NCBI GenBank assembly: GCA_022566355.1
Contig: JADFJB010000101.1
Coordinates: 1 to 17,344, forward strand
Source: a candidate division KSB1 bacterium
Lineage (GTDB): Bacteria; Zhuqueibacterota; JdFR-76; DREG01
Direction of reading: 5' to 3'
Length of the DNA: 17,344 nucleotides
The notes under the pieces were generated by a model that searched no databases, was not told the DNA's origin, and saw only the letters and a list, made by a program, of their open reading frames with translations. How positions within the stretch are numbered: position 1 is the stretch's first letter; every line of letters begins with the position of its first letter. Shown piece by piece: positions 6,248 to 10,621 of the stretch. The translations under genes were made by a program, and so were the position numbers.

Positions 6248-6580
6248 ATGAGGGTTCACTCCAGATTAGGTAATGGATTCCAGGAAGTGATTTATCAACG
6301 AGCCCTGGCAATTGAAATGCAAAAGCAGAAATTGTCATTTCAACAGGAATTAAAAATATCCATTTATTACGATGATCAACAAATTGGATCTCGTCGAGTT
6401 GATTTTCTAGTAGATGAAAAAGTATTGGTTGAACTAAAAGCACTTGTGAAAATGGAGTCTGTTCATATGGCACAGGCTATAAATTATCTCGAAGCCTTCA
6501 ACTTGGAGATCGGACTACTTATTAATTTCGGCAGTAAAAGCTTAGAGTTCAAGAGACTAATAAATAACCCGGAACGCTGA
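6248..6580 (+). CDS. GxxExxY protein (PD-(D/E)XK nuclease-like)
   Basis: This is a small protein of the GxxExxY family; its biological role is not established. The name-giving motif is at residues 10-16 (GFQEVIY, numbered from the ATG at 6248). Nuclease-fold hallmarks follow as VDFLVD (Asp52) and VELK (Glu62, Lys64), and the C-terminal LLINFG strand is typical. The conserved family N-terminus (SELTGKIIGAA) continues upstream in frame to 6191, directly after a TAA, but contains no ATG, GTG or TTG; it begins with ATA at 6191. So either translation starts at the internal ATG 6248 (AGGGG at 6238-6242 could serve as ribosome site), shortening the protein by 19 residues, or an unusual start is used, or the start was lost. 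The gene sits inside the repeat cluster and its own TGA is part of a repeat. Confidence 0.8.
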   Translation: MRVHSRLGNGFQEVIYQRALAIEMQKQKLSFQQELKISIYYDDQQIGSRRVDFLVDEKVLVELKALVKMESVHMAQAINYLEAFNLEIGLLINFGSKSLEFKRLINNPER

Positions 6581-8158: not shown

Positions 8159-9160
8159 CTATTCAGCTAAAATTTTCGTTCCCGGGTTGTTCAGACTCCA
8201 ATTGTACCAAAACGTATCGAAACCATTCAACTTGGAAGGGCAGTTATCACCCTCACCATTGAATAAACCGGTTTCAGAATCGAATTGACATTTTGATTCA
8301 CTATGAATCCAGCTGCTATTTTGCTTTTGAAAATCCCCGGTATTTGAGATATATGCAACGGTGGAGTGAAGAAGATCGACATCTTTGGGACGATAAAAAA
8401 AGACATATAAATCATTTCTTAACTCGAAACTCCTGCCATCCTCCATCAGAAAATAAGGAACGGCATAAGCATCTCCCTCCAAATGAAAGGAATAAATAGG
8501 CTGTTTTGTATGCAATCGGGTGTCTTTTGCTTTTAGTCCCCGGAATCCTTCAGAAGATTCAAAATAGTTTGCATAGTGGTTTCCATCCACATCTTCTTTA
8601 CCCCCTACCGAAAGGACCAGGGTATCAGGATGTTTTCTTAGCCAATCTTTCCATCTCATTTTTTTTCCGACTGGCATTTCATTAATCTTTGTTCCTGCTA
8701 ACTCACCGGCAATCACTTCATCACTCATGATAAACCAATAGCTATCGGTTTCCTTGTCTTGCATAACCAAAGAACCATTGATCAAACCACCGGATGCTTC
8801 AAGTGTATAAGTTTTACCATTGTAATCACGACCGTACACGACGGCAGTATTTGCCAGCGGTCACCATACAGCTGCAAAATTAGTTTCACCTATCTTGTCA
8901 TTTACCACTTCATGGCTGTTTAACAGGGATAAGCTGTAAGCCCTTGTTTGCCCGTCAATTTCGACGCCAAAAATCCATGAATCTTCATTTACTTTGGCTT
9001 TATTAGCAGGAACAAATTTCGGTTTTACGATTGCGGCTATCCGGCCGCGGGGGATGATCTGCTGGAATTGTTTAAAAATATCTTTAGTCTGAGTCATAGC
9101 GGTATTCACCAGTCCAAAAATAACCCATAAAAGAATTATGCCAAATTTCTTAACTGTCAT
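8159..9160 (-). CDS. DUF3179-domain protein with one in-frame UGA (selenoprotein candidate or nonsense allele)
   Basis: Two adjacent open frames on the minus strand (9160-8861 and 8839-8159) are in the same phase and separated by a single TGA (8863-8861, codon 100). Read through, they make one 333-residue DUF3179 protein. It has a signal peptide (residues 1-23), the KPKFVPA, GVEIDGQTRAYSL and HEVVND motifs, then W-UGA-PLANTAVVYGRDYNGK, then NGSLVMQDKETDSYWF, VIAGELAGTK and HPDTLVLS. In this family the residue before PL is normally cysteine (YCPLCxT type), so UGA replaces Cys; the second cysteine position is Ala here. Both halves are otherwise intact. A stem-loop follows the UGA. GGAAGG seven bases before the ATG is a good ribosome site. 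The protein should be exported; its activity is unknown. The alternative is a recent TGY-to-TGA nonsense mutation or a sequencing error. Confidence 0.75.
8827..8849 (-). promoter_or_regulatory. Possible SECIS-like stem-loop downstream of the in-frame UGA
   Basis: Starting 11 bases after the UGA, the mRNA can fold U·G, A-U, C-G, a U/C mismatch, G·U, C-G, C-G, G-C, U-A around a CGUGU loop. Bacterial SECIS elements sit at about this distance inside the coding region. The loop has G residues but not the GG of the E. coli type, and an alternative fold pairs GACCG next to the UGA with CGGUC. The evidence is suggestive only. Confidence 0.35.
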
Positions 9161-9277: not shown

Positions 9278-10621
9278 TTAGGCTTCAATGCCAAGTATAT
9301 CCTCCAAACGTTCATACTTGTGTTCCTGAACCCATTTTTCATAATCACCATGGTACTCTACTTTTTTCTGTAAGTCAACAACTCGAGATTGGATGGATTT
9401 AATCTGCTCTTCTGTTAACAGGTTTCTATTCTGATTATTTAAAGCACCTCCATCGCCATTGACCAGACTAGTATAATCTTCATGGGTCCATTTTAAGAAA
9501 TCGTTCATCACGTGATTCACAACAATTCTGCCGTGAACTTCAGATTCCTTGATATTGCCGCGCCCGGTCACTGCATTGCCAAGGGCGAATACATTTTCAT
9601 ATCCTTCCATCTTACCGGTATTTTCATTATCAATTATAAACAATTCTCCTTTCATGGGGATTTTATTGGTGGATTCCGGAATACTGCCAATTGAAGAAAT
9701 TACCAGGGGGCTTCTTACTTCAAATGTACTACCAGGGATTAGCTTAACCTTGCCATCGATAATTTCAGACTTTTGAAAAACCAATCCGACCAACCTGTCC
9801 CCATCCACGATTTTATCCACCGGTACACTGCAAGGTTGAAATCGAAAACAATATTTTCTTTGGGCATTTTGTAAAATTTTTTGTCTAACCATCTGAGTTT
9901 TTTGCAATTGTTCCGGAGTAGCATTTTCCGGCGGCGATGCCAGGGGCATATCGATATCGCGGCGGCGGTAATAGAGGGTACAACCTTTGAGCTCTAAATC
10001 TTCAAATTGCAAGCCAAGACCATCAAGAATCTTAGGAATCCCTTTTTTATCGAGGGAGAAAAGATCGGATTCCAATCCCCGTTTTTCCAAGACTCTCAGG
10101 GTGGATTCCAGCATCAGGATTTTCACAACATCAATAGATGCCAATCCTCCTCCGATAACCACGGCATCATCATGAATTTCATAGAGTTCCCGATCATAGT
10201 CCGACTCATGATAATGATTGAACCAATCGACAAAAGGATTTTGATAATAGAAACCTTTACCAATATAATCATCTATTCCCGGTACTGTCATTGGCCGGTC
10301 TTTCCAGGCTCCTGTTGCCAGCAGCACTGCGCTAAATCCCCAATTATTCACAATCTCGTCAAAATCGATTGTTTCTCCCAATTTCATATTCGGGACATAA
10401 CTTACATACTGCTGGTTAATTTTGTCATCGATCTTTTTTTCTTCTTTATTGCGAAGTTTTACATGCCACTTGGGTAACCCATCTTCGATTTTTCCATATG
10501 GCAGTGGATTTTTCTCAATAACCACCGAATAAATGCCACGTTGTGCCAATTGATGCGCTGCCTCTGAACCTGCACACGCACCGCCAAAAATCGCCACAAA
10601 ATAACCAGGGTGTAACTCCAT
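9278..10621 (-). CDS. FAD-dependent NAD(P)-binding oxidoreductase (glutamate synthase beta / adrenodoxin reductase-like)
   Basis: This is a 447-residue two-dinucleotide-binding flavoprotein. The FAD site is GGACAGSEAA at 13-22, with Ala in place of the third motif Gly, followed by VVIEKN. ATGAWKDRP at 102-110 is the typical second FAD contact, GGGLAS at 157-162 is the NAD(P) site, and GNAVTGRGN is the late FAD motif. KWHVKLRNKE and DMPLASPPENAT resemble ferredoxin-NADP reductase / GltD-like enzymes. There is no N-terminal Fe-S domain, so it would need a partner. The C-terminal 60 residues are a charged helical extension. GGAG seven bases before the ATG supports the start. The gene is 172 bases after brnA, so it probably has its own promoter. 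A link to KorAB through ferredoxin is possible but not shown. Confidence 0.85.
   Translation of the reverse strand: MELHPGYFVAIFGGACAGSEAAHQLAQRGIYSVVIEKNPLPYGKIEDGLPKWHVKLRNKEEKKIDDKINQQYVSYVPNMKLGETIDFDEIVNNWGFSAVLLATGAWKDRPMTVPGIDDYIGKGFYYQNPFVDWFNHYHESDYDRELYEIHDDAVVIGGGLASIDVVKILMLESTLRVLEKRGLESDLFSLDKKGIPKILDGLGLQFEDLELKGCTLYYRRRDIDMPLASPPENATPEQLQKTQMVRQKILQNAQRKYCFRFQPCSVPVDKIVDGDRLVGLVFQKSEIIDGKVKLIPGSTFEVRSPLVISSIGSIPESTNKIPMKGELFIIDNENTGKMEGYENVFALGNAVTGRGNIKESEVHGRIVVNHVMNDFLKWTHEDYTSLVNGDGGALNNQNRNLLTEEQIKSIQSRVVDLQKKVEYHGDYEKWVQEHKYERLEDILGIEA

Follow-up and report, generated by a model that had tools for sequence, protein, structure and literature searches.

Selenocysteine as the probable reading of an in-frame UGA in a DUF3179 gene of a candidate division KSB1 bacterium

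A DUF3179 gene in the draft genome of a candidate division KSB1 bacterium carries a single in-frame UGA, which is best read as selenocysteine (Sec), residue 100 of the protein, with a probability of about 0.93. The gene lies in a contig of 17,344 nucleotides (JADFJB010000101.1, assembly GCA_022566355.1), analysed at its full length and called the window below. A sequence-only reading of the window had proposed Sec at codon 100, and that proposal is now strongly supported by five lines of evidence: the conservation of the UGA among relatives, purifying selection on both sides of it, a covarying stem resembling a bacterial SECIS element, a UGA in the genome's own SelD gene, and the presence of DUF3179 in published selenoprotein lists.

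Results

One UGA interrupts an otherwise intact DUF3179 gene

Read on the minus strand from 9160 to 8159, the gene consists of an ATG start, 99 codons in all before a TGA, a further 233 codons and a TAG stop (Table 1). The TGA is the sole internal stop in the read-through translation of 333 residues, which matched the Pfam family DUF3179 (PF11376) with 164.6 bits against a cut-off of 27. Since the match runs across the TGA, from protein residues 40 to 326 and profile positions 3 to 290 of 292, the gene contains no frameshift. The initial description of a 333-codon DUF3179 frame interrupted only by one TGA, without a frameshift and with FAAVW before and PLANTAVVYG after the stop, thus agrees with both the frame and the profile match. 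So does its prediction that gene callers would split the gene and drop the key residue: ordinary ORF calling produced proteins of 99 aa (8861-9160) and 226 aa (8159-8839), and the residue between them was lost. Several main genes of the window terminate in TGA, which is therefore a normal stop there, and a genetic code in which UGA is a sense codon throughout was ruled out. From its N-terminal hydrophobic stretch, the DUF3179 protein is probably exported.

Table 1. Features of the DUF3179 locus and its upstream neighbour (window coordinates).
Feature	Position	Strand	Basis
DUF3179 gene, ATG to TAG, proposed selenoprotein of 333 residues with UGA read as Sec100	8159..9160	-	ORF reading and Pfam
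N-terminal hydrophobic stretch, residues 1-23, likely export signal or anchor	9092..9160	-	Sequence; low-confidence AlphaFold helix 3-21
Beta domain holding proposed Sec100, residues 60-190, with invariant H83, E84, N87, S123 and D135	8591..8983	-	Alignment and models
In-frame UGA, proposed Sec100, motif AVW-U-PLANT	8861..8863	-	TGA in 21/22 close relatives and in the genome's 3 other copies
Proposed bacterial SECIS stem-loop, UGA+11 to +33	8827..8849	-	Codon constraint, covariation and loop G
Conserved core of proposed SECIS; apical loop CGUGU at 8836-8840	8829..8847	-	Comparative alignment
Pyr_redox_2 NAD(P)/FAD oxidoreductase, directly upstream of DUF3179 gene	9278..10621	-	Neighbourhood comparison

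The UGA is conserved among relatives and paralogues

Of the 23 loci given by a scan for relatives, with one genome per species, 22 extend over the alignment column of codon 100 (the Sec column). TGA occupied exactly this column, within the motif AVWUPLAN[TA], in 21 of the 22, and the TGA-bearing relatives came from at least five phyla, including Calditrichota, KSB1, Pseudomonadota, Acidobacteriota and Latescibacterota. The sole exception, a gene from Planctomycetota (L089), has serine there, encoded by TCT (L089:3244-3246). This gene also has PSS in place of PLA and a broken stem, and it is an apparent case of Sec lost without reversion to Cys.

The genome that contains the window has three other DUF3179 genes on separate contigs (L002, L003 and L004 on G000 contigs C85, C49 and C51). 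They are shorter (227-277 aa), belong to another branch, and each has one TGA, in the motif VAYUPLVDL, so that all four copies in this genome carry TGA at the Sec column. The same stem-loop as in the window gene was seen in these three paralogues.

Across 59 genomes, comprising this one and mostly relatives from its phylum, DUF3179 copies had either an internal TGA or a plain Cys without a stop (CPLC, CPLT or CTLC). One genome with neither selA nor selB over the cut-off (G028) had ten DUF3179 matches, none of them with an internal TGA. The Cys copies formed one group in the DUF3179 tree, with the Sec copies outside it in two parts and one Ser copy; two label changes suffice to explain this distribution, compared to 11 for shuffled labels, on an unrooted tree that leaves the direction of change undecided. 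It had been claimed at the outset that the residue before PL is a conserved Cys in this family, and an alignment with homologues had been proposed as a check. That alignment placed Cys at the column in a more distant DUF3179 clade and TGA in all but one of the close relatives, which is the pattern of a bacterial selenoprotein, a conserved in-frame UGA where homologues have Cys. TGC or TGT in close relatives, which would have spoken against Sec, was not seen, the one departure being the TCT of L089.

Purifying selection acts on both sides of the UGA

Nonsynonymous change was far below synonymous change, and similarly so before and after the UGA. Between the window gene and L070, pN was 0.33 before the UGA and 0.27 after it, with pS of about 0.8 on both sides; for the close pair L080 and L081, dN/dS values were 0.04/0.71 before and 0.13/0.71 after. 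The decay of the downstream sequence that would have counted against selenocysteine was absent, with no excess of change after the UGA by pN/pS. As judged by these comparisons, the TGA of the window is neither an error nor a product of decay.

A stem-loop downstream of the UGA is supported by comparison

A stem-loop starting 11 bases downstream of the TGA had been pointed out from the window alone, and the element is present at UGA+11 to +33 (8849-8827). It has the loop CGUGU, a 5-bp core stem and a spacing of 20 nt, and its loop size, loop G and spacing all fit the published bacterial SECIS model, which specifies these features with a spacing of 16-37 nt and a minimum free energy at or below -7.5 kcal/mol (PMC13188914). 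The predicted energy was -7.2 kcal/mol for the 36 nt after the UGA, narrowly short of that limit, and -10.1 kcal/mol for 63 nt. The window's own stem includes one U-C mismatch and one G-U pair. Folding of the single sequence was rejected as proof of a SECIS element: 38% of synonymous recodings were equally stable, and the 43-nt fold gave z = -0.20 with another structure preferred. Rfam gave no matches on the window. Because the single-sequence fold is not significant, the case for the element rests on comparison.

Three comparative results were obtained. First, codon uniformity for conserved residues in 23 aligned genes peaked at U+5 to U+10; segments around this position ranked top in the gene, and the signal at U+1 to U+11 was matched by none of 20,000 permutations. 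Second, in 29 aligned sequences a 7-pair stem at UGA+13 to +31 was paired in 87.7% of cells, compared to 18-51% when slid by 1-3 columns, though one inner pair was unpaired in 14 of the 29. Third, the stem covaried: 13 cells were changed on both sides as opposed to 3.0 in shuffled data, and the covariation score was 0.251 against 0.139 in shuffles (reached in 0/500). The clearest column pair, 21-31, is C-G in 22 sequences, U-A in 7 and broken in none. As this pair joins a third codon position to the first position of a Gly/Asp-versus-Ser codon, a coding change is accompanied by a silent one. Loop position 2 is G in all Sec sequences, and in L089, with its Ser codon in place of UGA, the two loop-closing pairs are broken.

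SelD is present and the remaining machinery was not found in the draft

A search of the genome for selA, selB, selD and tRNA-Sec, the first check suggested for the claim, succeeded for one of the four. SelD is encoded on the minus strand of another contig (G000:C12:35945-36865, L134; 374.8 bits), and this gene itself has an in-frame UGA at the active site (LAKTCGUAAKISP) with a stem-loop of -15.7 kcal/mol. The 213-contig draft, 98.5% complete, gave no match to selA and, for selB, only other GTPases below the cut-off; no tRNA-Sec exceeded the Rfam cut-off among the 150 of 355 candidates scored. A pattern scan allowing 3 mismatches also found no tRNA-Sec in this genome, and the same scan works, having found tRNA-Sec in G001, G005, G015 and G032. 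A lack of the machinery had been named as grounds for giving up selenocysteine; formally this is what was found for selA, selB and tRNA-Sec, while SelD is present.

The absence of these three genes is very likely an assembly gap, the main rival being a true recent loss. Were the genes lost recently, UGA would now be a stop and the DUF3179 gene a dying remnant producing a 99-residue fragment. The completeness of the assembly favours this reading, as does the finding that selA exceeded the cut-off in 44 of the 59 genomes searched. Against this stand the four DUF3179 copies and SelD, all of which keep their frames intact past the UGA, and the even pace of change on its two sides. Comparison of gene order also favours a gap. 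In both genomes of the same family (G001 and G002) selA adjoins selB, and a membrane-protein gene lies upstream of selA, adjacent to it in G001 and with two genes between in G002. No counterpart of the membrane-protein gene was found in the window's genome, which points to a missing block, as one lost segment of the assembly would give, rather than to the absence of sel genes alone. Other drafts that plainly use Sec show holes of this kind: in G032 and G033 selB and tRNA-Sec were found and selA was not, and in G002 and G013 selA was found and tRNA-Sec was not. Likewise, no tRNA-His, tRNA-Ile(GAT) or tRNA-Glu(TTC) was found in the window's genome (150 of 299 candidates scored), and a bacterium is expected to need all three. 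Taken together, we consider recent loss improbable.

We regard it as more improbable still that the organism lacks SelA, SelB and the usual tRNA-Sec and has an unrecognised system, guided by the stem-loop, that decodes the UGA of SelD and of the four DUF3179 genes. The missing machinery would also accommodate a UGA that is read, in a cell with no Sec system, as Cys, Trp or Ser through leaky readthrough or a suppressor tRNA. A suppressor tRNA was rejected, since the tRNAs found include none with a UCA anticodon, and readthrough in general sits poorly with the TGA stops of several main genes of the window, with a SelD that has a UGA of its own, and with constraint on a stem-loop that is required by SelB but not for simple suppression; we give this explanation very little weight. 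An error in sequencing or assembly would take one base change, from TGC or TGT to TGA; it is practically dismissed by three paralogues on other contigs and 21 of 22 independent relatives, all with TGA at this column.

A possible Rieske-like fold in the Sec domain model

The AlphaFold model (mean pLDDT 92.6) places Sec100 where a strand of a beta-rich domain ends, and residues 60-190 modelled alone reached a pLDDT of 94.4. A search of the PDB by sequence found no relative of the window protein, and a search by fold with the whole protein returned nothing significant. With the Sec domain alone, the best VIA-align match in the PDB was 2de5_D (Z 8.2, rmsd 2.5, 91 residues aligned), and all 50 entries listed were of the Rieske fold; the top four Foldseek matches were also Rieske-fold, at non-significant E values of about 0.2 to 1. 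The likeness to Rieske-fold proteins such as Rieske ferredoxins and NirD is thus one of modelled fold. They differ in sequence: profile comparison with ten Rieske ferredoxins gave no match (hhalign probability 0.2), and neither of the [2Fe-2S] ligand motifs, CxH and CxxH, occurs in the DUF3179 alignment. We take as a lead, and not as family membership, that DUF3179 may have a Rieske-like domain without an iron-sulfur cluster.

A resemblance first noted by eye, in which UPLA would correspond to CPxH and Sec100 to a cluster cysteine of Rieske proteins, was dropped for two reasons. VIA-align matches model residues 11-111 to ferredoxin residues 4-98, so that Sec, at model residue 41, falls well ahead of the second cluster motif, and there is no sequence match at the profile level. 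Elsewhere in the model, a strand-strand-helix-strand-strand pattern appears twice, at residues 62-100 and 221-257 (window 8390-8977, minus strand), which suggests an internal duplication with Sec in the first copy only.

Neighbouring genes

The Pyr_redox_2 gene that directly precedes the DUF3179 gene does so also in L072 and L079 (Calditrichota), making 3 of 23 loci only. The two proteins may be functionally linked, a suggestion made the more cautiously because the oxidoreductase shows no export signal by eye. Elsewhere in the window, two neighbouring plus-strand ORFs (197-811 and 847-1737) share the near-identical stretch LNGIYSLYFYMANYQLDSVQIVITNGNIQASSTGVKNNGELV and are apparently a tandem duplicate. 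Positions 6248-6580 (plus strand) encode a 110-aa protein of the PDDEXK_3 nuclease superfamily.

Discussion

For the window protein we infer Sec insertion, export and a redox role. During translation, the stem-loop 11-33 bases after UGA-100 would recruit SelB and Sec-tRNA-Sec, and the UGA would be decoded as selenocysteine to give a protein of 333 residues. The genes for SelA, SelB and tRNA-Sec would most likely lie in the part of the genome missing from the draft assembly.

Sec100 would replace the redox Cys of CPLC and CPLT proteins and, given Cys at this column in the distant clade, is probably a reactive selenol. The invariant residues upstream of it, H83, E84 and N87, may shape the site. 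The sequence-only reading had observed that the usual second Cys is Ala here, and Ala does occupy position +3 of the window protein, where other DUF3179 proteins have Cys or Thr and the three paralogues Val. Two later Cys (KCQFD...NCPSK) are absent from several Sec relatives in the alignment, which leaves the window's branch with no visible conserved resolving Cys. With Ala at +3, the selenol would have to be regenerated by a partner protein or a small thiol, unless it acts as a single selenol or in a role that does not involve a disulfide.

Two reviews include DUF3179 in their lists of prokaryotic selenoproteins, with the motif UxxC/T (PMC9312934, PMC13188914), and the window gene adds to this already listed family. 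Its protein resembles the listed members (PF11376) in its full-length family match, in Sec at the same P-L motif and in its bacterial host; it differs in that UxxC/T excludes both UPLA and the UPLV of the paralogues, which fall outside the listed motif. The Cys proteins (CPLC/CPLT; for example L020-L027 and haloarchaeal plasmid copies) share the family and the motif position. They have Cys in place of Sec, form a separate tree group at 23-29% identity to the window protein and have no in-frame UGA. The SelD gene of this genome (L134) likewise has a UGA closely followed by a stem-loop, and encodes an unrelated protein, an enzyme of the selenium pathway. No NCBIfam model matches the window protein, and we found no function for DUF3179 in those parts of the searched literature that name the family.

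The DUF3179 branch with AVWUPLANT, found in at least five phyla, consists on this evidence of selenoproteins, which standard annotation would split at the UGA and lose. Its missing partner Cys or Thr broadens the published UxxC/T motif. As nearly every sampled member of the branch uses Sec and none uses Cys, it is well suited to the question of what selenium contributes to a protein of unknown function.
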